This document shows, piece after piece, positions 51,265-62,904 of a stretch of 64,000 nucleotides of DNA. This stretch comes from Pseudobutyrivibrio sp. (GTDB taxonomy: Bacteria > Bacillota > Clostridia > Lachnospirales > Lachnospiraceae), in the NCBI GenBank assembly GCA_017557435.1, contig JAFYYR010000011.1:99575-163574 (forward strand). The letters are read 5' to 3'. The notes under the pieces were generated by a model that made no database searches, was not told the origin of the DNA, and saw nothing but the letters and a program-made list of their open reading frames with translations. The translations under genes and the position numbers were made by a program. Every line of letters begins with the position of its first letter. Positions within the stretch are counted from its first letter, which is position 1.

Positions 51265-53172
51265 TCATGCGGCTAGGATAACTCCAGCACCCTCCTTTTT
51301 ATTTTCAAGGACCTGATCATGAAGCTTCTTCATAAGCTCATATCTTTGAGTATAATCATTTCCTCTAAGGAATACTACGAACTCATCTCCACCAATTCTA
51401 AATACTGGACTGTGTACAAATGTATCACACAAAAGTCTAGCTGATGCTCTAATATACTCATCTCCTGCAGCATGACCTAAAGTGTCGTTTATTTGCTTTA
51501 GATTATTGGTATCGCACACAACAAGACCAAAATTCAAATAATCCATGCCATTATCTATATTTCCTTGGGCTGATTCCTCTAATTCTTTGTAGGCAGTTTT
51601 ATTCTTAATTCCTGTAAGCTCGTCGCGTCTAGCTAGTTCTTTTTCATTCTTCAGTGCCCTAAGTTGCTGCATCTGTCTTTGAACCTCAGCATCGATGTCT
51701 TCCACTCCAATAATGTAATGTATTCCATCGCTGCTTTTCCTAACCACCATTCTAGTATATCGGTATTTTCCGTTTACCTTTATCCTGTAATCAATGGTGT
51801 AATCTTTGCTGTGATCAAGGCTTGAAATCATGTTATCTTTATTTACAAACTCATTTACACGATCCAAATCTCTATGATGAACTATCAGCGGTGATTTCTC
51901 ATATGAATCTGCGAAAAAATCATCTCCAGAATCACTAACTTCCAATTGACCATATATATTATTTACCTCATATCTAACGTAAGAGGAATCTGTTATATCC
52001 ACATAGTAAATTACGTCATAATTGGAAGCAAGGCTCTCTGCAATCTGACCAAAGGTAATAGTCTTTTTCTGATTTTCTCTCTGCTTCTTCTCCGCATTTA
52101 ATTCATCTTCAATATCTTTCTCATAGAAAATAAGATACTGGCTGTTACTATCGCGCATAACTGTGAATAGGAAAAATCTTGGTTCTTCATCTATCATAAC
52201 CCTATATTTAAAGGAAAATGAACGCTTGCCTTCTATATTTTTAAGCATTGTATCTTTGTCATAGAAAGTTTTAGCATAGGCCTTATCTTCAGGATATACG
52301 CATAAATCAATACTCTCCAAAACTTCTTTATAAAAATCTTTTCCTAATTCTACAGCCTGTAACTTTTTATACTTCTCGCTTTGGGCAAATGTTAAATATT
52401 CCCCTGTTGCTATTTCAATATAGAAAATGGCCTCATAATCCCTTGCCATAGTTCTAGCAATATGATCATGAATTTCCTTTTCTTTCTTTTCATCAGAAAG
52501 GACAAATGAATGAACAAGACATATACCTATCATAAGACCCATTGCATAGTTAGGTAGCAGGGCAAATAATATTTGACCCATAAGCGATACACCTATAACC
52601 ACACTAGTTATTGCAACAGCTTTGTATCGATATTTTTGACGTCCACTACTCTTATGGGCTATATAAAACATGTAAGTTGAAACAACTGTATAGAATATAA
52701 GCTGAAAATATAAATAAATATTTCTACCTGTTTCACCAACATATTCATGAGCCTCATTATACGAAAACATGAAATGATGATATCTGTTAATCATTAGGCA
52801 AACTACGCCTATTACAAACATAGTCCATACGCCATACAGAAGTACATCACTTCGAAGATTACGCTTATCAAGATATGCAACTATATACATGGTCCAAGCC
52901 AGCATAGTTAGAATCATAAAAAGAAAATAAAAGACCGTTAAATAATATATGAATGGAAATAGAGCATCTATATCTCTGTGCTCATACAAAAGTCCCCAGT
53001 TCATATCTACAATAAAGTATCCGCATGCAGAAATAATAAAATAGTTGTAGTAAACATGTACTGATTTTTTCTTATCCTGCCTACAAATGCGGAATCCATA
53101 TTTCTTAAATAATTCCCAGTTTAAAATTATATTTATTACAAGCACTACTGCCGGAACTAGTGAATAAATCAT
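51265..53172 (-). CDS. PAS-PAS-GGDEF diguanylate cyclase, prematurely stopped
   Basis: A 635-aa reading frame: seven or so TM helices (5-225), two tandem PAS-like domains (about 235-355 and 370-500) and a GGDEF domain with intact RIGGDEF (594-598). An in-frame TGA ends it before the last strands and helix of the GGDEF domain, whose coding sequence follows at once. Activity is doubtful unless the stop is read through or is a sequencing error. Confidence 0.85.
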   Translation of the reverse strand: MIYSLVPAVVLVINIILNWELFKKYGFRICRQDKKKSVHVYYNYFIISACGYFIVDMNWGLLYEHRDIDALFPFIYYLTVFYFLFMILTMLAWTMYIVAYLDKRNLRSDVLLYGVWTMFVIGVVCLMINRYHHFMFSYNEAHEYVGETGRNIYLYFQLIFYTVVSTYMFYIAHKSSGRQKYRYKAVAITSVVIGVSLMGQILFALLPNYAMGLMIGICLVHSFVLSDEKKEKEIHDHIARTMARDYEAIFYIEIATGEYLTFAQSEKYKKLQAVELGKDFYKEVLESIDLCVYPEDKAYAKTFYDKDTMLKNIEGKRSFSFKYRVMIDEEPRFFLFTVMRDSNSQYLIFYEKDIEDELNAEKKQRENQKKTITFGQIAESLASNYDVIYYVDITDSSYVRYEVNNIYGQLEVSDSGDDFFADSYEKSPLIVHHRDLDRVNEFVNKDNMISSLDHSKDYTIDYRIKVNGKYRYTRMVVRKSSDGIHYIIGVEDIDAEVQRQMQQLRALKNEKELARRDELTGIKNKTAYKELEESAQGNIDNGMDYLNFGLVVCDTNNLKQINDTLGHAAGDEYIRASARLLCDTFVHSPVFRIGGDEFVVFLRGNDYTQRYELMKKLHDQVLENKKEGAGVILAA

Positions 53173-53437
53173 ATAGTTTTTTGCCTCTCCAAGAACTCCC
53201 CTAATTAATACATATTTTTTTGGTTCTTTTAATTATAAATCACAATTGTTAACATTCTTTTAACGTCAAAAAACTTTCACAATTACAAGAGTAACTGAGA
53301 AGGCGCTGACGTCCTGTGGACAACCTTTAGCGCCGACCGACTTATTCAAACCCGCTTGAATTCGATTTGCCGGTAAGCACAGCTCCGCTGTGGACAACAA
53401 AAAAACGATGAGTTTATCTCATCGTTTTTTTATCATA
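53173..53437. other. gene-free stretch outside the left att site
   Basis: No gene. Two copies of CTGTGGACAAC (53314-53324, 53388-53398), close to a DnaA box, and two hairpins (GGCGCT/AGCGCC and CACAGC/GCTGTG) lie ahead of the terminator at 53399. The GGDEF gene promoter should be near 53190-53250 but I see no clear one. Confidence 0.5.
53399..53431. terminator. terminator beside the left att site (former tRNA-Arg terminator)
   Basis: Fourteen-base perfect stem with A and T runs on both sides. On the minus strand it follows the displaced tRNA 3' end by a few bases, the expected place of the original tRNA operon terminator before integration. Confidence 0.8.
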
Positions 53438-53460
53438 TAGCGTGCGTGAGAGGATTCGAA
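53438..53460. repeat. left attachment site (displaced tRNA 3' end)
   Basis: 23 bp, starting TAGCGTGCG and ending GATTCGAA, identical to 62828-62850. On the minus strand it is the T-loop to 3' end of tRNA-Arg without the rest of the gene. Confidence 0.9.
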
Positions 53461-53624
53461 GTAATTCCTCAAAAAAAATGACGAAAAATCAAGGGTTTCA
53501 AGCCTTCAATATTCCAAGTGAACAAAAAAATGAACAACTAAGTGAACAAGCACCCAGAACTGCCCAGAATTCAACCCGAAATGCATATTCAGTTTTCTCT
53601 ATTTTACCAAAAGGAGAAAACACA

Positions 53625-54593
53625 ATGGAGAATAATTTTACAATCCAAACTGGCAACAAAATTGTTGACCAAATGGCAAAAATCAATTTCAGCGGAAATG
53701 TGATTCCAGAAATCTGGTATCAAACTATCATCAATGAAAATGGCAAAGTAAATCTTCTTGCCATCAATATCTTAGCAGATGTTGTCTACTGGTATCGTCC
53801 TACGGAAAATAGGGATGAGCAGACAGGCACTGTATCTTATTCAAAAAAATTCCATGATGATGAACTACTTCAGCGAAGCTACGAACAGCTTTGTCAGAAA
53901 TTCAATGTAAGCAACAAGCAGGCAAGAGAAGCTCTTATTGTTCTCGAACAGCTTGGTGTTGTTAAGCGTGTCTTCAGAACTATCATGACTGTTGGTGGAG
54001 CATGTCCTAATGTAATGTTCCTTGAGCTCTTTCCACTTGCACTTTTAAAATTAACCTATCCAGATGATTACCAGGATATTTCCGAAAATGGAGGTACTTC
54101 CGAAATTGAAAACACATCTTTACAAAATTGTAAGGAGGTATTTACAAAAAAGGAAACACGTCTTTCCCAAAAAGGAAATACAAATACAGAGAATACAACA
54201 GAGATTACTACAGAGATTTCTACAACAACAATGGTGCCTGCGGAAACACCTTCTACAGCTGCGCCTTCTACTGCTACTGAAGATAAAAATGTTGTTGTTC
54301 AACAAACAAAAGAACTCTTTGCTGAATACAATTTCTCTGACGATGAAATCAACTCATTGGCTAAGACTGCATATTATCACTTTGAAAAACTCTATGATGC
54401 CTATCTCTGCCTAAAGCAACAGCCTGGCACCATCAACAACAGAATGGGCTGGCTTATCGGTGCCATCCGTGGCGGCTACAAACCAAAGTACCGCCCTGAT
54501 CAGGAGGCGAAGTCTGTCAAAAACAGCTTCCACAACTTCAGCCAGAGGGATTATGATATGGGCGCTTTGGAGAGGGCATTGTTGGGATTCTAG
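53625..54593 (+). CDS. winged-helix replication-initiator-like protein
   Basis: A 322-aa protein. The N-terminal part (MENNFTIQTGNKIVDQMAKI, about 1-125) holds a winged helix (SYEQLCQKFNVSNKQAREALIVLEQLG). A Thr/Glu/Pro-rich linker follows (about 165-220), then a helical C-domain ending GWLIGAIRGGYKP. The plan resembles RepA/DnaD-like initiators of mobile elements; I cannot prove the family. The ATG at 53625 has AAAAGGAGAA; the open frame extends back into the att site but without a ribosome site. Confidence 0.65.
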   Translation: MENNFTIQTGNKIVDQMAKINFSGNVIPEIWYQTIINENGKVNLLAINILADVVYWYRPTENRDEQTGTVSYSKKFHDDELLQRSYEQLCQKFNVSNKQAREALIVLEQLGVVKRVFRTIMTVGGACPNVMFLELFPLALLKLTYPDDYQDISENGGTSEIENTSLQNCKEVFTKKETRLSQKGNTNTENTTEITTEISTTTMVPAETPSTAAPSTATEDKNVVVQQTKELFAEYNFSDDEINSLAKTAYYHFEKLYDAYLCLKQQPGTINNRMGWLIGAIRGGYKPKYRPDQEAKSVKNSFHNFSQRDYDMGALERALLGF

Positions 54594-54598
54594 CATTC

Positions 54599-54672
54599 AA
54601 AAAACACCGCCGACCGAATTAACGGCCTTGGGCGGCTCAGCTAAGAGTATCGCCCTGCAAGCGGTGTTTTAA
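54599..54672 (+). terminator. branched stem-loop after the Rep-like gene
   Basis: AAAACACCGC/GCGGTGTTTT, perfect 10-base outer stem with a T-run, enclosing about 50 bases with a second stem (GGGCG/CGCCC). Confidence 0.7.
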
Positions 54673-55132
54673 ATAAATGCTCCTTCGAAACTATGGCTCT
54701 AAACCACAGCTTTGTTCAAGAAAAAATGATTAATAAATGTGGGCCAAACGATTCCAATAACCCATTCATGTCCACACCCATCATCTTTTATTTGAAATAC
54801 TTTAAATCAGAATACTAGGCTGCACTTGCCATTCAACTTCATTAAAGAATTTCTTTAGCAATAATAGTTTACTCTGTTTAATTCATGCACTGGTCGTTTT
54901 AAAAACGACAATTATATAAACCGAAAAAAGGTTGACCGAGAGAAAAATGGGCCCACTACCAAAGGTAAGAGTCCGCTACTCAATGTCAACCTTTGCTCAT
55001 TCATGGTCTACTCTACTATGGGTTGCTATGTTCTAATCGATATCGTAGTGTCACTTTCTATCGGAGTAATGTGGAATAAAGAAAATCCGTCTTAGGGTAC
55101 AATTACCGCAAGCATCACTTTTCCTTACACAA
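54673..55132. other. gene-free stretch in the island
   Basis: No credible ORF. It holds a small perfect hairpin GTCGTTTT/AAAACGAC (54893-54909) and a large stem-loop at 54927-54994. Nothing else is recognised. Confidence 0.5.
54927..54994 (-). terminator. large-loop terminator downstream of the ankyrin-like genes
   Basis: AAAGGTTGAC/GTCAACCTTT perfect 10-base stem with a 48-base loop, followed on the minus strand by TTTTTT. The loop itself contains stems. It ends the leftward transcript of the 55133-57540 genes. Confidence 0.65.
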
Positions 55133-56011
55133 TCACATATTATCAGGTTCTTCTAATACAATATTTCCTCTTTGGTTTTCCCATTTGAAAACAATTTTGT
55201 ACCCATTATCAATGCTTAATCGTGCAGTTACAGAATCCAGATATCTTAAACTTTTGATTTTAGCTCCAATAATTGGTTTATACCCTTCAGTTACATCCTT
55301 TATGCTAATAGCATTTTCTTTTATATATGGATTAACTATAAACTCCACGCAGTCTCTTGCTTCTAGCAGCATATCATCAACATGAAAAACTAGACTTCTT
55401 CGAGTGGTACCATCTTTTTTATTTGTATCATGAACAATCACTTCTTCCACTTTATATACTGTACCTCCAACCGTTCTTCTAAAAGCTCTAATACCATGAT
55501 AATCCAAATGTGCCTGTACTCGTTTTATCATAAGATAATATGCTTCGTATATATTGGCTATATCAAAATACTCAGCAGCATATTCTAGATCATGTTCGCC
55601 TATATTCCAATAACCAAGTCTCCAATCAATACTATCAAGTACTCCATATTCATCGTGCTCATCTTCATAATGATCAAGTGTACTGTCAGCACCTGCATCT
55701 AAAAGAAGTTCCGCAGCATCTAACACATACTGGTCATACACATGCCAACATAATTGATGTAAGCAACTTGAGCCATTTTTACCTCCATTTGCAGAAACAT
55801 CAAACCCATTTTCTAAAAATATTTGAATTAATTTAACTAAGTACTTCCCTCTATTGTTGAAGTAATAAAAGCAATCAGATAAAGCACTGTCGTCATCACC
55901 AAATTCGTTAATGTAATCTTTATTTTCTTCGATAATTCTGCTGACCTCAGCCCAATCAATTATGTACTTTTCTATTTCTTTTGAAAGTAATCGTTCCAAT
56001 TTAAACCACAT
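55133..56011 (-). CDS. ankyrin-like repeat protein, copy B
   Basis: A 292-aa cytosolic protein. Residues about 15-165 show ankyrin-like helices (LVKLIQIFLENGFDVSANGG, AAELLLDAGADSTL). A beta-rich C-domain (about 175-285) follows, ending in FKWENQRGNIVLEEP. It shares this plan and many positions with the gene at 56563-57540, so the two are divergent paralogues. Function unknown; such proteins occur as immunity or defence accessories. Ribosome site GAGGTAATT. Confidence 0.7.
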   Translation of the reverse strand: MWFKLERLLSKEIEKYIIDWAEVSRIIEENKDYINEFGDDDSALSDCFYYFNNRGKYLVKLIQIFLENGFDVSANGGKNGSSCLHQLCWHVYDQYVLDAAELLLDAGADSTLDHYEDEHDEYGVLDSIDWRLGYWNIGEHDLEYAAEYFDIANIYEAYYLMIKRVQAHLDYHGIRAFRRTVGGTVYKVEEVIVHDTNKKDGTTRRSLVFHVDDMLLEARDCVEFIVNPYIKENAISIKDVTEGYKPIIGAKIKSLRYLDSVTARLSIDNGYKIVFKWENQRGNIVLEEPDNM

Positions 56012-56032
56012 AATTACCTCATATCTTACTTA

Positions 56033-56581
56033 CTAAAAAAATGCCCTATTGGGACAAAAGTGCTCTTCGTTCTTATCTATCAACTCTTTTAAAACATCTA
56101 ATTTTTCCTGTATAAGTCCTTTTCTCCAGTCAAACAGCGGATTAATAAAGTCCTCTTCATCCATAATGCAATGAATGCCATTATCACAATTATCTATGTT
56201 ACATTCCATAGAACAATATGAGTCATCCAAACTAGAAACATCCCATCTTACCCACGCATCTATATCTTTTGATATATCTTGATAAAGGGCTTTACAGAAA
56301 TCAATCATATTTAATTTCACACCGTGAAATTCGTATACACCTTCTCCATCCTCATCTTCCATCATGATATAGCAATCCCAATAACTAACTGTACAAAGCA
56401 TTCTTCCTGGTTCACAAAATCCATGTACTGTAAAAGGCGCTATTTCTGTTAATCCATGAATCGCTTGATCTAACCAATCTAAGGCCACATCTGTTAAATA
56501 TCCCAAGCCATAGGTATGCTCTTCATCAATCTTAAAGTCTGTCCATCCACACTCTGGTTTAGTTAACATTTTTGCCACCAT
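56033..56581 (-). CDS. unknown acidic protein between the ankyrin-like paralogues
   Basis: A 182-aa acidic protein rich in Asp, Glu, Trp and Cys, with no membrane segment. A conserved-looking core is GYLTDVALDWLDQAIHG and a Cys cluster sits at about 133-148 (CSMECNIDNCDNGIHC). I do not recognise it. The start overlaps the upstream gene's end by 19 bases, so the three genes form a coupled unit. A Met four codons later is an alternative start. Confidence 0.65.
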   Translation of the reverse strand: MVAKMLTKPECGWTDFKIDEEHTYGLGYLTDVALDWLDQAIHGLTEIAPFTVHGFCEPGRMLCTVSYWDCYIMMEDEDGEGVYEFHGVKLNMIDFCKALYQDISKDIDAWVRWDVSSLDDSYCSMECNIDNCDNGIHCIMDEEDFINPLFDWRKGLIQEKLDVLKELIDKNEEHFCPNRAFF

Positions 56582-57540
56582 ATCCTTCCTACTCGTTCAT
56601 TATTCGAATCTTTAGCTGAGCCGATTGATACTATCCACCCTGAATCTATTTCGATTTCAAGCCTTAATGCTTTTTCTAAATCTATCCTTATATCAGATAT
56701 TTTTCTTTCTATAAACTCTTTTGCATATTCTGAAATATCAAGTATATGGTCAAACCCTATACGGTCACTTGTCCATGCATATGCGTAATTATCGATAATC
56801 AAATATCCATCCTCATACTCGATAATAATCTTGTCCGTAAAATCAATAATCTCGTTCTCATATACTTGGATTACAGGTGTTCTAACTGTCTTTCCTGATG
56901 TATAAATTTTCTTTATTGTCTTCCCAAAAGACTTTTCATATAAATCAATACCTTCGTACGGCAAACCTTTTTCTCTTGCTTCAACTATCTGACAAAGTGT
57001 TTCATATATGAGGCTCATATACCAGTTTTCGCAACCAAACCACATGATATAACTCTCGTCTGTAAGATATCCCAATAAAGTTTCATCATCATCTGTAGTT
57101 CTAGCATCATTATCTATTCCAGCTAAAAGCAATTCTTTTGCTGTATAAAACTCCTGTCTATCATAGCTTGTATATAGTACCCGCTCTAACAGAACTATAC
57201 CTGCCTTTCCGTCATCAAGCGATAAATCATACCCGTTGCTCAAAAATAAATGTATTATTTTTCTTATCTCTATCCCAGCATTAATATTGTCTCTCAGGTC
57301 GCCTCGTCTTTTACACTCCTCATAATCTTTGCACGCACAGCAACCAGCTATTGGTTTGTGAATACATCCCCCATGATATCTAAAATTATCAATTATCTTA
57401 GATAAGACATTCTCATATTCCTCATCACTCTCTACACGCTCATTTAGATTAACACCTTCTCTAATTATCTCTTCTGCCTTATTAAAGTCATAATGTTCAA
57501 TATTTAATGCTTCAATCAACGCCTTTTCTTTAGTACCCAT
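56563..57540 (-). CDS. ankyrin-like repeat protein, copy A
   Basis: A 325-aa protein. N-terminal ankyrin-like helices (KALIEALNIEHYDFNKAEEI, IIHLFLSNGYDLSLDDGKA, AKELLLAGIDNDAR) carry a cysteine-rich insert (CIHKPIAGCCACKDYEEC, about 57-74). A beta-rich C-domain with the motif YEDGYLIIDNYAY follows. Paralogue of the 55133-56011 protein, which lacks the Cys insert. The ATG at 57540 follows CAGGAGGATT; a longer frame is not supported. Confidence 0.7.
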   Translation of the reverse strand: MGTKEKALIEALNIEHYDFNKAEEIIREGVNLNERVESDEEYENVLSKIIDNFRYHGGCIHKPIAGCCACKDYEECKRRGDLRDNINAGIEIRKIIHLFLSNGYDLSLDDGKAGIVLLERVLYTSYDRQEFYTAKELLLAGIDNDARTTDDDETLLGYLTDESYIMWFGCENWYMSLIYETLCQIVEAREKGLPYEGIDLYEKSFGKTIKKIYTSGKTVRTPVIQVYENEIIDFTDKIIIEYEDGYLIIDNYAYAWTSDRIGFDHILDISEYAKEFIERKISDIRIDLEKALRLEIEIDSGWIVSIGSAKDSNNERVGRIWWQKC

Positions 57541-57589
57541 ATACAATCCTCCTGACATTATTATTTTACAACCTAAAACTGTTCCTTCG

Positions 57590-57634
57590 GTCTTTTCAGA
57601 AAAGACAAATGCCAAGGATTTCTCCCTGGCATTT
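57590..57634 (-). terminator. two back-to-back hairpins after the membrane/XRE-like gene
   Basis: AAATGCCA/TGGCATTT (57607-57634) and GTCTTTTC-A-GAAAAGAC (57590-57606) in tandem, T-rich on the minus strand. They separate the 57642 gene from the ankyrin unit. Confidence 0.65.
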
Positions 57635-57641
57635 GATAATC

Positions 57642-58352
57642 TTAATATCCTATACATTTTTCGTCTTTAGCAAATAATATCTGATTTACTTTTTCTATAT
57701 CGTAAATCTCATGTCCTATACAATAAGCTATAATCCTATCCCACTGTATAGAGTTTGAAAGCGCGTATCCAGCTGACTCTAGCAATTCATTTGTAGTTTT
57801 ACTATCAAGCTTTAATCCCAAGCAACACGCAACAACGGTTTCTTTCTTCGGTTTATAATGTAATTCATTCTTAATTGCTGAAAACAATCGTCTATCAATC
57901 CATGCTGCTTTATAAAATTCTGTATTAGTTATTTGACGTTCATCAATCAGCTTCATTAACAATCTACTAAATGTTGGCCCTTTTGGTTCCAGATCATCTT
58001 CTTCAATATACACGCCCCCAACACTTAAACTATATCTCACATTTGATGATTTCTCATACGCAGCTTCTATATCTCTTATTATTAGTTCTATCTCATCTTT
58101 TTCAAATAGAACTAAACCACTATCCAAAATGGGAGTTAAACTTTCATCTTCATCTGTTAGCTCTATATTAGGATAATTTGAAAAGAGATAAAGATCTCTA
58201 TCTATTTTTTCTTGTGCTTTTTTCAATTCTTCAGGTGATAGCCGTTCTTTACCAAGATCTACAACTGGAATTTTCTTTTTGCTTCCAATTATATAAATCA
58301 ATAAAACAATACCAACAAAAACAGCTAAAACAATTATAAGAACCCCGTCCAT
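57642..58352 (-). CDS. membrane-anchored protein with XRE-like C-terminal domain
   Basis: A 236-aa protein: TM helix at about 4-23, then a charged segment (about 30-120). The helical C-domain (about 128-236) runs FSRLLMKLIDERQITNTEFYKAAWIDRRLFSAIKN... in pieces and contains a YKPKKETVVACCLGLKL helix. I know this C-domain as a helix-turn-helix-like module found at the end of many uncharacterised signalling proteins. DNA binding is doubtful for a membrane protein. Ribosome site GGAGGATATCA. Confidence 0.65.
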   Translation of the reverse strand: MDGVLIIVLAVFVGIVLLIYIIGSKKKIPVVDLGKERLSPEELKKAQEKIDRDLYLFSNYPNIELTDEDESLTPILDSGLVLFEKDEIELIIRDIEAAYEKSSNVRYSLSVGGVYIEEDDLEPKGPTFSRLLMKLIDERQITNTEFYKAAWIDRRLFSAIKNELHYKPKKETVVACCLGLKLDSKTTNELLESAGYALSNSIQWDRIIAYCIGHEIYDIEKVNQILFAKDEKCIGY

Positions 58353-58405
58353 TGATATCCTCCATATCTTAACTACCTTTTTACTAATTTATTGCCCCTT
58401 TAGAT

Positions 58406-58453
58406 TGCGTGGCAAACTGCGTGGCAAACTGCGTGGTTAATTGCGTGGTTGAT
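58406..58453. repeat. four 12-bp iteron-like tandem repeats
   Basis: TGCGTGGCAAAC twice, then TGCGTGGTTAAT and TGCGTGGTTGAT, with exact 12-bp spacing and constant TGCGTGG. Three GGTAG direct repeats with 9-bp spacing follow at 58476-58498. The region is non-coding and lies between the AlbA_2 and membrane protein genes. It could be a replication or regulator binding array. Confidence 0.75.
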
Positions 58454-58559
58454 TGCACTGCATTATTTCCATTTGGGTAGTTTTGGTAGTTATGGTAGCT
58501 TTTACAAACTCTTTTCCGAGCCTTTCCCGATATATCAAATTTTTAATACACCATCTTAG

Positions 58560-58593
58560 CTTTTAAAGTGCCAAATTTCTGGCGCTTTAAAAG
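58560..58593. promoter_or_regulatory. stem-loop downstream of the AlbA_2 gene
   Basis: CTTTTAAAGTGCC/GGCGCTTTAAAAG, one wobble, 8-base loop. It may act as a weak terminator for the AlbA_2 gene. Confidence 0.5.
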
Positions 58594-58614
58594 TTTCAAT
58601 TTACACAATAGCTA

Positions 58615-60135
58615 TCACTTATTAGGTAATATATAGTGACGTGAACGGCCTTCTCCAACAGCATCCAATAGACCTTCATCCACCATCTCTGTTATTAATT
58701 CCCTGGTGCGAGCCTCAGCTAATCCCAAAAGTTCACTTATATCCGCTCTCTTAGCTTTACCATTAGAAGATATGTAAGCAATTATTTTCTGCTTATTTTC
58801 AGCTGTTTTTGCAGTCTTTATCTTTCCGATGGTTTTTTCCGACGGTTTTTTCCGATGGTTTTTTCCGATGGTTTTTTCCGATGGTTCTTCAAAAGAAAGC
58901 ACTAGTGTCACCTGATTCAATACAGTATTTTCTATAAGTTCAGGCTCAACCCATCCATTACTCTTCCATGTTTCAAGAATAGCTGGAAATCCAGAACCAG
59001 CATTGTCGCCAAACCCTACCATTCGAAGCATAGTCTGCATCTTTGGATTTCTAGCTTTAGAAAGACCTCCATGGTAAATTTCTTCTTTTGGTAATTTTAA
59101 AACTCCTGGATTTGTAAATTCAAAACCATTAGCTTTCTTAATTACCTTAAGAACGCCTGCATCCATCAAATAATCCGAATGAATTATAAGATTTACAAAA
59201 GCCTCTCGAACAGCTTTATGAACAGGAGTGTCATCCACTCTTTCAATATTTTCAAGTTTGAATGGTTTCTTTAAATCTTCAGTGAGCTTTCTTGTTACTT
59301 TTGTAAAAAAGTTAAACAGGTTATTTTCCCAAGTTCCATCATATGTAATTCTGTCATTCCATCTGACATCAGTTGATACATTACTTTCATCTCGATAATC
59401 CATGAAAATATTATCAAAGACATCTCTGATAGGAAGCCCTTTTCCAAACATAAGAAGTCCTGCAACTGTGAGTCCTTCAACACCTGCTTTTCTGTCATTT
59501 CTATAACCGCCTAGCATCGTCAAAAACTCTTTATCGTCACATGAATTCCAAACATGTTCTGGATTCATCACTCTAAACATCTGTCGATATGCTCTAAAAG
59601 TTTCAGGATCAATATCATCCATTGTGTAATATTCGATAATAGTACTATCGTTACCATTTGGATTTTGATCACGAATCATAGCTCTGACTTCATGCTCAGT
59701 TGCATGATAATCACCTTCATTATTTCTCTTGAAAGTACCCTTGTAAGGATTCTCACCAACGTAGATTGGTTTAAGATTATATTCTGCCCTTGGAACATGA
59801 ATCACTAATAATTCTACTTCTCCATCTGCAACAACATAAACATCATCATCTACTAAAATATTAGTATTGACCTTGCTGCCATTTATTGTATTCCAGAAAT
59901 CTTCTTTCTGCTTGATGGCATTCTTAATTCCCTGGATTTCAAAACGTTTTTCAGGATTTTTCTCTTTTTTATTTTCTTTAATACCAAAAATAATATCTCC
60001 GCCATTTGTGTTAGCAAACGCGGAATATGATTCATAGACAGACTTAGGAACTGTAGACTCAGCTTCTTTGCATTCTAAATCTACACCTTCACCTGATAAT
60101 AGTTTTTTCTTTAATTCATCAAACGTGAATTTCAT
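58615..60135 (-). CDS. AlbA_2/ATPase-domain regulator (RNA helicase-like DUF family)
   Basis: A 506-aa protein. AlbA_2 (Schlafen-like) domain at about 15-135 (VDLECKEAES, FANTNGGDIIFGI), a middle region, and a HATPase_c_4 domain at about 300-415 (AVREAFVNLIIHSDY). A repeat linker at about 415-437 and a C-terminal winged helix (about 445-500, KRADISELLGLAEARTRELI) follow. Members are often labelled putative transcriptional regulators and occur on mobile and defence islands. The linker is encoded by five 13-bp repeats. Confidence 0.82.
   Translation of the reverse strand: MKFTFDELKKKLLSGEGVDLECKEAESTVPKSVYESYSAFANTNGGDIIFGIKENKKEKNPEKRFEIQGIKNAIKQKEDFWNTINGSKVNTNILVDDDVYVVADGEVELLVIHVPRAEYNLKPIYVGENPYKGTFKRNNEGDYHATEHEVRAMIRDQNPNGNDSTIIEYYTMDDIDPETFRAYRQMFRVMNPEHVWNSCDDKEFLTMLGGYRNDRKAGVEGLTVAGLLMFGKGLPIRDVFDNIFMDYRDESNVSTDVRWNDRITYDGTWENNLFNFFTKVTRKLTEDLKKPFKLENIERVDDTPVHKAVREAFVNLIIHSDYLMDAGVLKVIKKANGFEFTNPGVLKLPKEEIYHGGLSKARNPKMQTMLRMVGFGDNAGSGFPAILETWKSNGWVEPELIENTVLNQVTLVLSFEEPSEKTIGKNHRKKPSEKTIGKIKTAKTAENKQKIIAYISSNGKAKRADISELLGLAEARTRELITEMVDEGLLDAVGEGRSRHYILPNK
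58826..58890 (-). repeat. five 13-bp tandem repeats inside the AlbA_2 gene
   Basis: On the plus strand the unit is CCGATGGTTTTTT, five copies (second with one change, last diverged), 13 bp apart. Since 13 is not a multiple of 3, each gain or loss shifts the frame and removes or restores the C-terminal winged helix. In the present frame it encodes PSEKTIGK twice. Confidence 0.9.
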
Positions 60136-60320
60136 AAAATATCGTCTCCCGATTTTCTAAAAATGATTGTTTGAAACTGTTCTTCTTAGGCAGTACAGTT
60201 CCTCGCAAGCAATGTTTTTGTCCGACAAAAACAAAAAATCAGCTTTGCTGATTAGCATCGAATCTTTAAGATTCGAACTTTATATTGTCTCAAATTCTTC
60301 AAAAAACAAACAATCCCAAA
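60136..60320. other. hairpin cluster between the AlbA_2 and XRE genes
   Basis: Three consecutive perfect hairpins: GTTTTTGT/ACAAAAAC (60215-60233), AATCAGC-TTT-GCTGATT (60238-60254) and CGAATCTT/AAGATTCG (60260-60276). The second, followed by TTTT on the minus strand, is a good terminator for the XRE gene. Confidence 0.7.
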
Positions 60321-61004
60321 TTACTTTTCCTTTGATTTATTCTTTTTATCAGATTGCTTTTTTGCCTTTTGTGCGTTATTAAAATCATGCACATACTGTT
60401 TAAATTGTTCTTCGTTCTTCGAATAATAATTGGAACTCATATGATGTTCTGTAACATATTTCATACGCTTTATTACGTTCTCATCAGCTTGTTTTTCTTC
60501 AGGAATACATCTTTTGATAACTTGAAGATAATCAAAAAGTGGCCATGATTCAAGCCAATAATCCAAAAAATTTTCTTTATTGCTCTCTGGGAACATATCG
60601 ATTTGAAATGAAATGTCATCAACAAAAGCATTATATGTATCAATTTTAAAATCAAATAACTGTTTATACATCTCCTGTAAATTAGCATACTCTTCAGGTA
60701 GTACAACACTGATGGTTCCATCATTGTTCTTTACAATATCCTTTGAATATTTTATTAATAGCTTATTAAAAATTCTTCTTTCGTCATCTTCTGTTAATTC
60801 TAATCCAGATAAATCCAATGGATCAGCCATAAGCACACGCGCAATCTGTTCTCTAAGTTCTATCTTAGGAATTCTTTTTCCAGTTTCATATGCAGCTACT
60901 GCAGATGAAGCAATCCCCAATTCTTCAGCAAGCTTAGCCTGTGAAATGCCTCTCATATTCCGAGCTTTTTTTATCTTTTCTGCAATGACATTATTTTTGA
61001 GCAT
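60321..61004 (-). CDS. XRE-family repressor of the island
   Basis: A 227-aa protein with an N-terminal Cro/CI helix-turn-helix (SQAKLAEELGIASSAVAAYETGKRIP in pieces, about 20-45), a helical middle and a Lys-rich tail. No LexA-type peptidase motif, so relief of repression would need another signal or a protein antagonist. It is divergent from the integrase with operator-like palindromes upstream. Ribosome site AAGGAGGAATT. Confidence 0.88.
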   Translation of the reverse strand: MLKNNVIAEKIKKARNMRGISQAKLAEELGIASSAVAAYETGKRIPKIELREQIARVLMADPLDLSGLELTEDDERRIFNKLLIKYSKDIVKNNDGTISVVLPEEYANLQEMYKQLFDFKIDTYNAFVDDISFQIDMFPESNKENFLDYWLESWPLFDYLQVIKRCIPEEKQADENVIKRMKYVTEHHMSSNYYSKNEEQFKQYVHDFNNAQKAKKQSDKKNKSKEK

Positions 61005-61033
61005 AATTCCTCCTTAATAAATGTTGACTTTTA

Positions 61034-61063
61034 AACTATACTTTTGTATAGTTGCTATATAGC
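61034..61063. promoter_or_regulatory. operator-like palindromes ahead of the XRE gene
   Basis: AACTATAC-TTTT-GTATAGTT, perfect 8-base arms (61034-61053), next to GCTATATAGC (61054-61063). They lie over the likely XRE promoter, fitting autoregulation. Confidence 0.65.
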
Positions 61064-61357
61064 ATTTATAGATTATTGTATTCATATTTAGTTAATTGTT
61101 TAGTTCTATATTTGTTTCCCAAAAGATAATCATTAGTTTCTTGGTTAATTATAACACACCAACTGATGATTTCTACAGTTATTATTTTTGCAACTTGAAA
61201 ACTGAATATGTATTTTGGATTGAATTCTGGTAGCTCGGAAAGGATTTCATTTATGGCTATTCCTTTTATATTTCAGAATCTTCTTTTTACATCGACCGCA
61301 GGGTCAGTTTACATAGTTTCCTAAGTTCAGAAAACTATTAATACCTCACGAAAGGGC
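61064..61357. other. upstream region of the integrase
   Basis: A+T-rich. A short frame at 61253-61324 (23 codons, GGAAAGG before its ATG) ends 33 bases before the integrase and in its frame. It could be a leader peptide or a remnant of a longer N-terminus. No excisionase is recognised. Confidence 0.35.
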
Positions 61358-62734
61358 GTGATTGTTATTAATACTATTAAAAAGGTCCCAACCTTTAGTT
61401 CTGAATCTTGTGAAATAGTGAATCTAAAGGTTGGGCTTGACTCTGCAAAAAATGAATGTCCTGATTTGTTATCTTTACTTAATTATGATAATCTCAGTTC
61501 GATTGAAGAGCTTGAGACCCTTGTAGAAGGGATTAAACAGGACATGAAACGAAAGGAGATTCTGAATAAACACAAACCTGCTATAAAGCAGCTTCCAAGT
61601 GGAAAATGGTACACTCGAATAAATGGAAAAAAGTACGAACGAGTTAAAAAACGAGATTTAGAAGATTTAGTCATAGACTCATACAGCAATCTCAATCATA
61701 TTACAATAAATTCTATTATTAATTCGTACTTTATCTATAGAAAACGAATTGTAACAAGCAGAACTTGGAAGAAAGACATCCAGTATTACGAGAGCTATAT
61801 AAAAAATTCAACCCTGGCAGAAAAAGATTTAACTGATTTGACATTGGATGATGGCTATGACTTCATAGATTATTGCATAGAAATAAAGCCTGACATGAAA
61901 CGTAAATATTGGGATAACATAAGAGCTTGTTTAAACCAGATATTCCAGTATGCACTAGACAGAAATCTAATTACTAGAAATCCAATAGAGAATCTAAAGC
62001 CTCATAAAGATACTTTTGCAGCTCCAACAAGAACAAGAGATGGTGATACAGTTTTTTCAAAATCTGAACAAACAAGAGTTGTTAATCTTGCAGAAACTGA
62101 TGCAGCTAAAAAGAATATTTCACAGCCATTAGGAATTGTTTTGCTATTTAATCTTGGTCTGCGTGATGGAGAACTATGTGCTTTAAAGTGGAAAGATATT
62201 GAAACCAATTTTAGAGGAGACTACATTCATGTACAACGTGAGATGGTAGCTAAAATAGATAATGATGGAAAATATGATGGATTCGAAATCTTACCCCACT
62301 GTAAAACACCAGCAGGCAATAGAAGACTTCAGTTAAATCAAAAAGCCAAAGAAACACTAAAACTTATTAAACAGCTTAATGAACAGAATAATCTTCCTAC
62401 AGATTATGATGATTTTATCTTTTTAAGATGGGATAAAGAAAAAATTAAAAATTGTACACCAAGAAGCTTTGATCCTCGTCTTAGAAGATATTGTAAACAC
62501 GCTGGAATGGATGTAATCAAATCACCACATGATGTACGCCGAACCGTTCTAACGAACCTTTACATGGCGCATATGCCTCTTAAAAAGATTCAAGAGTTTG
62601 CTGGTCATTCATCTTTAAAACAAACAATGGATTATATAAAAATCACAGATGATGATATAGATATGATTCAGTATCTTGATACTCTTTCCAAGGAAGTATA
62701 TGAAACAGTAATTCCATTCAAGCGAGAAGCTTAG
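61358..62734 (+). CDS. int: tyrosine recombinase/integrase
   Basis: Catalyses site-specific integration of the island. The 458-aa protein has an N-terminal arm-binding part (about 75-110, GKWYTRINGKKYERV), a core-binding helical domain (about 115-215) and a catalytic domain with R269, K316, H391, R394, H417 and nucleophile Y426. The set is complete, so the enzyme looks active. The start is a GTG at 61358 with AAAGGG very close to it, so the true start is uncertain. It lies beside the tRNA-Arg att site. Confidence 0.92.
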   Translation: MIVINTIKKVPTFSSESCEIVNLKVGLDSAKNECPDLLSLLNYDNLSSIEELETLVEGIKQDMKRKEILNKHKPAIKQLPSGKWYTRINGKKYERVKKRDLEDLVIDSYSNLNHITINSIINSYFIYRKRIVTSRTWKKDIQYYESYIKNSTLAEKDLTDLTLDDGYDFIDYCIEIKPDMKRKYWDNIRACLNQIFQYALDRNLITRNPIENLKPHKDTFAAPTRTRDGDTVFSKSEQTRVVNLAETDAAKKNISQPLGIVLLFNLGLRDGELCALKWKDIETNFRGDYIHVQREMVAKIDNDGKYDGFEILPHCKTPAGNRRLQLNQKAKETLKLIKQLNEQNNLPTDYDDFIFLRWDKEKIKNCTPRSFDPRLRRYCKHAGMDVIKSPHDVRRTVLTNLYMAHMPLKKIQEFAGHSSLKQTMDYIKITDDDIDMIQYLDTLSKEVYETVIPFKREA

Positions 62735-62788
62735 AACTCTTACAAGAAGTGAACACGAGTGAACATTAATTGTACAAAATGAAAAAAA

Positions 62789-62817
62789 CCTGAGTCCTTA
62801 ATTTATAAGGATTCAGG
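62789..62817. terminator. bidirectional terminator between int and tRNA-Arg
   Basis: CCTGAGTCCTTA/TAAGGATTCAGG stem flanked by A and T runs. It ends int on the plus strand and the tRNA operon on the minus strand, replacing the tRNA terminator carried off to 53399. Confidence 0.8.
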
Positions 62818-62827
62818 CCTAAAAATT

Positions 62828-62850
62828 TAGCGTGCGTGAGAGGATTCGAA
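62828..62850. repeat. right attachment site within tRNA-Arg
   Basis: Same 23 bp as 53438-53460; it supplies the tRNA T-loop and 3' end, so the tRNA gene stays whole after integration. Confidence 0.9.
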
Positions 62851-62904
62851 CCCCCGACACCTTGGTCCGTAGCCAAGTGCTCTATCCAGCTGAGCTACAC
62901 ACAC
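62831..62904 (-). tRNA. tRNA-Arg(ACG)
   Basis: Cloverleaf with acceptor GTGTGTG/CACGCAC, anticodon loop CTACGGA and D and T arms. The T stem has two G-U pairs. Last gene of the tRNA cluster and the integration site of the island. Confidence 0.93.

Follow-up and report, generated by a model that had tools for sequence, protein, structure and literature searches.

Integrative and mobilizable elements of the Firmicutes carry an integrase, use a chromosomal attachment site and may possess a replication gene of their own, whereas phage-inducible chromosomal islands (PICIs) are defined by a divergent repressor/activator pair of the stl/str type. The orphan-immunity islands of the Bacteroidales combine a tyrosine recombinase with small unrelated genes. 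Satellites that lack recognizable packaging genes, the phage-inducible chromosomal minimalist islands (PICMIs), have been reported (PMC10803314). In this work we analyzed a 64-kb stretch of a contig of Pseudobutyrivibrio sp., family Lachnospiraceae (JAFYYR010000011.1, 64,000 nucleotides; the window), which includes an island of 9,413 bp inserted at a tRNA-Arg(ACG) gene. From these analyses we consider it rather probable that the island represents a modular integrative element, with this tRNA gene as attachment site, and that its cargo consists of immunity-like or otherwise protective genes that do not form one machine.

The length of the island is set by exact copies of a 23-bp direct repeat, TAGCGTGCGTGAGAGGATTCGAA, at both ends, as the first-pass annotation had pointed out. 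The distal copy, attL, is located at 53438-53460 and the other, attR, at 62828-62850 (both given on the plus strand). The two copies were recovered in a repeat search; attR is also supported by tRNA prediction, given that it forms the 3' end of the tRNA-Arg(ACG) gene (62830-62904, minus strand), and the junction at attL by the empty sites of related bacteria. A 22-base core of the repeat is present at only two sites in the 64 kb even when 3 mismatches are tolerated, and 0 were found in 100 shuffles. This tRNA gene is the outermost of eight, beside what appears by eye to be an rRNA operon. Judging from the sequence, the hairpin next to attR was brought by the element and the native hairpin now stands outside attL; a scan of 53000-62830 against Rfam, with E up to 1, detected no RNA. 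The G+C content of the island is 0.344 versus 0.396 for positions 1-53437. The replication gene, with 0.397, is similar to the rest of the window (0.396), and the other island genes range from 0.31 to 0.35.

The first-pass annotation had proposed a comparison of related tRNA-Arg loci, and this comparison agrees with its description of an integrative cargo island: six of 13 loci are empty, six are unrelated beyond the core, and one holds a sister element with other cargo. When the left flank was used as a query against the genus, 29 of 61 genomes matched at E 0.001 (own genome included), many of them with short or paralogous pieces. Thirteen same-genus tRNA-Arg sites were retrieved, and the window was aligned with them after the island was removed and its flanks were joined. 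The joined flanks span the junction in 12 of the 13 loci, and the extent of the alignment past the core varies. In L028, L029, L030, L032 and L033, 142 bases of the distal flank are included in a single alignment with 73-84% identity, and in L031 the distal block is present as a separate collinear piece; strictly speaking, the empty sites are the loci in which the same distal block directly adjoins tRNA-Arg, 6 of 13. In L032, which belongs to genome G013, the gene that neighbors the island in our window (it reads as a diguanylate cyclase) is in place approximately 0.9 kb from the core, and its product is 74% identical. For L035-L040 the alignment reaches only 3 to 46 bases past the core and is followed by unrelated sequence, and all that these six loci show is that no replication protein of the island's kind is encoded next to the core. 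The insertion is real, and relatives carry the uninterrupted site. The att repeats, an intact integrase and the uninterrupted site in relatives, by which an integrative element at a tRNA gene is recognized, are all present. As a separate observation, L028-L034 show a second, truncated att core of 12-16 bases about 140-160 bp past the tRNA-Arg gene or the core, perhaps left by an earlier integration event at this site.

The integrase gene (61358-62734, plus strand) encodes a tyrosine recombinase that matches the Pfam family Phage_integrase (6e-21) and phrog_1 (6.5e-41). The motifs GLRDGEL, HDVRRT and GHSS, and Y426, which we take to be the catalytic residues, are visible in its sequence, consistent with the complete catalytic set noticed in the first-pass annotation. 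Relatives of this protein were detected at E 1e-20 in 6 of 29 genus genomes, the five besides its own with 27-29% identity; no close relative was found in these 29 genomes. A match of 57 residues in a viral contig lies in a frame that is not integrase-like and was taken as chance.

Short repeats that could act as arm-type sites for the integrase are located inside both ends of the island. The left arm (53516-53548, plus strand) includes AGTGAACA twice and AATGAACA once with a spacing of about 12 bp, and it is conserved in the sister element of genome G001, where AGTGAACA is also found twice at 12-bp spacing. In the right arm (62748-62765, plus strand) the repeat search identified AGTGAACA twice with a spacing of 10 bp. 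There are four copies of AGTGAACA in the window, two per arm and none elsewhere; given that 2.3 copies are expected from window shuffles, the copy number is ordinary, and therefore it is the position of the copies, not their number, that is informative. In addition, a 34-bp inverted repeat has one copy upstream of the replication gene (53564-53597, plus strand), which is partly conserved in G001, and the other upstream of the integrase gene (61197-61230, minus strand). The two copies are complementary at 31 of 34 positions, beyond the maximum of 23 obtained in 25 shuffles, and the exact pattern was found in 6 of 107 loci, all six from the same genome as the island. In an excised circle, these copies would flank the integrase gene and attP. 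A 38-codon frame at 61208-61324, upstream of the integrase gene, may encode a leader peptide.

At the opposite end of the island, where the first-pass annotation had correctly placed a Rep-like winged-helix gene, positions 53625-54593 (plus strand) encode a phage-type replication initiator (Rep) whose relatives are O/DnaD-like (phrog_270, 5e-10, a replication initiation family; phrog_186, 1e-6). The protein matches 40 phage records, none over 80% of the query, and 16 plasmid records; phage proteins reach 50% identity over its N-terminal two fifths.

The sister element in G001 was found at the thirteenth locus (L034), on a contig of 3.5 kb. It is similar to the island in that it adjoins the same chromosomal block and has a 22-bp core (22 of 23 bases), the arm repeats, and a Rep at the same site whose identity to that of the island is 67% (BLAST) to 70% (alignment) over its length. 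In contrast, its cargo is different: the genes behind Rep encode a radical SAM/SPASM protein, whose best NCBIfam match (E 7e-37) scores 127 bits and falls short of the family cut-off of 400, and a 252-residue protein without a Pfam family. Given that att core, arm repeats and Rep are shared and the cargo is not, we regard the island as a modular integrative element, and read the pair as a common backbone with exchanged cargo. The 252-residue protein is rich in Ser and Asn and ends in GGCITWR; the two cargo genes (L034, 76-1936) are possibly a modified-peptide pair.

This anatomy suggests how the element could move. The integrase would bind the AGTGAACA arm sites that flank the core and excise a circle, in which the integrase gene, attP and rep would become neighbors. 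Rep would then start the replication of the circle, leaving the remainder to host enzymes, and the XRE regulator described below would keep the element silent. Movement from cell to cell would need a helper (a conjugative element, a phage or transformation), given that no relaxase gene and no packaging gene was recognized. Taken together, movement by excision and a replicating circle appears well founded on the anatomy of the island. If the helper were the conjugation machinery of another element acting on an origin of transfer concealed in the island, and if Rep acted on the excised circle, the island would be a mobilizable element. The backbone of integrase and Rep, the tRNA site and the lack of phage structural genes would all fit. 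The island has an integrase, a chromosomal attachment site and possibly a replication gene of its own in common with the integrative and mobilizable elements of Firmicutes; in contrast to them, no relaxase family was detected among the eight island proteins that were included in our scans of family libraries (Pfam, PADLOC, PHROG and others; short frames excluded), in agreement with the first-pass statement that no mobilization gene is visible. A relaxase of PF03432 was also absent from the genome itself (0 of 1; the control was positive in 1 of 14 genomes, and this was the only relaxase family looked for at the genome level). On balance, we consider a mobilizable element rather unlikely.

The XRE/CI-type regulator (60321-61004, minus strand; Pfam HTH_3, 2e-11) is divergent from the integrase gene, as had been annotated at first, and the interval between them includes short frames only. 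Upstream of the regulator gene, a perfect palindrome, AACTATAC-N4-GTATAGTT (61034-61053), is a candidate operator; it is the single copy in the window at 3 mismatches or fewer, although 26 of 100 shuffles also hold one, so that it is numerically weak. Promoter-like matches (38, with a shuffle mean of 41) were not above shuffles and were not used.

An integrase, an XRE regulator, a phage-type Rep and no structural genes within 9.4 kb also match the loose description of satellites in PMC13376191, and the island could be a phage satellite, induced by a helper phage, replicated by its own Rep and encapsidated by the helper although it has no packaging genes itself, as is reported for PICMIs, in which such genes are likewise not recognizable. 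Compared with PICIs, two tested features are lacking, the repressor/activator pair and the packaging genes, and one, the absence of capsid genes, is present. The pair is lacking because the gene divergent from the XRE gene is the integrase gene. In the eight proteins the Pfam and PHROG scans detected no packaging or interference genes (terS, ppi, cpm), and the PHROG scan no capsid genes; neither a primase family, despite the Rep-like initiator, nor an excisionase (AlpA/Xis) or terminase family was found in them. Moreover, phrog_2, the terminase large subunit, had no match in the genome that carries the island (0 of 1), and no relatives of Rep or XRE were detected in viral contigs by scans that reach close relatives only. 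For these reasons the satellite label of the first-pass annotation was not sustained, and we consider a helper-dependent satellite quite unlikely, even though the island may work like a minimal satellite lacking packaging genes.

The gene next to the regulator adds evidence on both sides. It encodes a protein of 506 residues with Schlafen/AlbA_2, HATPase_c_4 and winged-helix domains (58615-60135, minus strand; Pfam 2e-11 and 2e-7; phrog_12156, 1.5e-54). The protein matches 20 phage records, nine of which are named Streptococcus satellite phages, and in the three records that we opened (Javan416, Javan301 and Javan96) the gene, there called RecG-like, is next to the integrase with a repressor-like gene nearby. 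These Javan satellites are, like the island, compact and have a terminal integrase. In contrast, Javan416 and Javan96 encode a primase and Javan301 has helicase-loader genes, no primase being recognized in the island, and the gene order of the three is different: many small genes are divergent from the repressor, whereas in the island the repressor diverges from the integrase and Rep is at the far end. Furthermore, a relative with 48% identity is present in the IMG/VR contig L087 with no integrase or repressor beside it by eye, and therefore this gene is not a satellite marker. It probably belongs to the backbone of the island and not to the cargo, in which case four of the five cargo genes originally counted stand and the fifth does not. 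Within it, at 58823-58886, there are about five copies of a 13-bp unit in the linker ahead of the winged helix; since 13 is not a multiple of three, slippage would put the downstream part out of frame, with loss of the winged-helix end, making this a possible site of phase variation. About four copies of a 12-bp unit lie at 58404-58456, between this gene and cargo gene 5; on the minus strand they would read by eye as TTQ-like repeats, and are perhaps the remnant of another such linker.

The four cargo genes are all on the minus strand. Gene 2 (55133-56011, 292 residues) and gene 4 (56563-57657, 364 residues as listed) are diverged paralogs, with 27% identity and E 2e-12 in a pairwise test; the true start of gene 4 is likely the ATG at 57540, behind AGGAGG, which would give a product of 325 residues. 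A profile made from four sequences of this family matched 46 PDB sequences when E values up to 1 were accepted, almost all of which are ankyrin proteins, with a best whole-sequence E of 1.5e-4; taken singly, the aligned stretches of the top two matches are weak, and the non-ankyrin rest includes a keratin and a designed protein. The Pfam ankyrin family was matched by one of four members, at E 0.14 only. It is thus reasonable, if weakly so, to describe both proteins as ankyrin-like, gene 2 having a C-terminal part without assignment. Relatives are scarce: 3 of 397 family genomes for gene 2 (own included), 3 of 299 for gene 4, and two loci in the search of genome contigs. Gene 2 had no match in the plasmid search and none in the viral scan.

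Gene 3 (56033-56581) encodes 182 residues and belongs to a small family without a Pfam or PHROG model. Its homologs, of approximately 134-165 residues, begin at its fifth residue (ATG at 56569), and were found in 4 of the 397 genomes of the family sample and in 3 of the 196 of the class sample, its own genome being included in both counts. Their chromosomal neighbors include rpoB-, aspS- and dnaA-region genes (named by eye), so these homologs sit singly at unlike places. A profile search of PDB sequences gave chance-level matches only. We also dropped an anti-CRISPR assignment: a match to AcrIIC1 seen at E 0.3 with four sequences was gone, at E up to 5, when eleven were used. In one locus (L080, 607-1520) the homolog is accompanied by a DUF6194 protein and by a 156-residue protein with no Pfam family, possibly a small cluster of the polyimmunity type.

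Gene 5 (57642-58352, 236 residues; phrog_4031, 1.5e-7) combines, by eye, an N-terminal membrane helix and an acidic linker with a helix-turn-helix (HTH)-like C-terminal domain of about 118 residues. This part was matched in 151 of 397 family genomes. The domain, which also forms the C-terminal parts of the proteins in L060-L078, received no Pfam name above cut-off in the proteins that were scanned. In at least 11 of the 19 best-scoring foreign loci a macro domain is present ahead of it by eye, confirmed with Pfam in both of the two tested. Macro domains bind ADP-ribose.

Two terminator-like hairpins interrupt this set, one with a 13-pair stem between genes 5 and 4 (57606-57635, minus strand; hairpin scan) and the other, with a 5-pair stem, where gene 3 ends. 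Gene 4 overlaps gene 3. Terminator-like sites in the region number 11, compared with 4.2 in shuffles. From the hairpins, the cargo would fall into at least two transcription units and is probably not one operon. In the family samples, relatives of genes 2 and 4 occur in G189 and G344 and those of gene 3 in G068, G138 and G390, with no shared genome besides the island's own. On balance, the hairpins and this distribution indicate a collection and not a single machine.

These same results bear on whether genes 2-5, perhaps together with the AlbA_2/Schlafen gene, form a dedicated anti-phage system that jointly stops phage growth. In favor of such a system, the genes are located in a mobile island at a tRNA gene, the homologs of gene 3 in viral contigs could be phage-borne versions or inhibitors, the domain of gene 5 is often fused to macro domains, and the AlbA_2 protein matches a PADLOC model named pAgo (3e-11). 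Against it stand the hairpins within the set, the separate distribution of the relatives in family genomes, and the PADLOC scan of the four cargo proteins, in which no model reached 1e-3 (best E 0.0018), so that no known anti-phage signature was found; the domain of gene 5 is too common to judge. We therefore regard a joint anti-phage system as unlikely.

Our best guess is that the cargo genes are independent and immunity-like, or protective in some other manner. We favor the immunity-like function because a table of Zhang et al. 2012 records ankyrin-repeat immunity proteins (Imm-ank) in polyimmunity loci of Firmicutes (PMC3482391). The island resembles the orphan-immunity islands of Bacteroidales in its tyrosine recombinase and its small unrelated genes; however, it differs from them in that scans of family libraries at E up to 1 detected no Imm family in the four cargo proteins, and the libraries name no function for genes 2, 3 and 4.

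Several observations weigh against a modular integrative element with independent protective cargo. Regarding the element, 60 of 5000 shuffled arm pairs have some 8-mer twice in each arm, so that the enrichment is modest, and the conservation of AGTGAACA in the left arm of G001 is a better argument for arm sites than this test. No integrase was detected in G001 by the genus search at E 1e-20 (the genome is 81% complete), and its contig, which shows one end of the element only, stops before any integrase. Regarding the cargo, no toxin gene was recognized by eye beside the homologs of genes 2-4 in L053, L054, L079-L081 and L103-L106 (L054 and L080 are cut by contig starts), and the immunity-like function is therefore without direct support. 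One genome of the class sample, G052, encodes a homolog of gene 3 and also gave, on a different contig, a weak match to the ankyrin profile (E 6.5e-6), which may represent any ankyrin protein. Finally, gene 3 homologs are present in eight IMG/VR contigs, two of which, L096 and L097, are near copies, and the C-terminal domain of gene 5 is also found in phrog_4031 and in two phage records, and these findings are at least equally compatible with a role related to phages. With L097 left out, one of the seven viral records with gene 3 homologs matches phrog_2; for the other six, inclusion in IMG/VR and the gene content as judged by eye are the grounds for calling them viral, several neighborhoods reading like those of large phages. 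Gene 3 itself had no match in the phage records. Since its family is present in IMG/VR contigs and has no model in the libraries searched, it may have a phage-related role. It is very unlikely, in our opinion, that gene 3 represents an undescribed family common to phages and Clostridia that forms, with the two ankyrin-like paralogs, a new conflict module, the island carrying the host-side version of a phage-borne protein.

As an element, the island is ordinary. Its value is that it is small and cleanly delimited, that empty sites are visible, that arm sites can be proposed and that a sister element has swapped cargo, which makes its movement directly testable. The family of gene 3, unnamed in the libraries searched and found as single genes in chromosomes as well as in viral contigs, has a function that could bear on the conflict between phages and their hosts.

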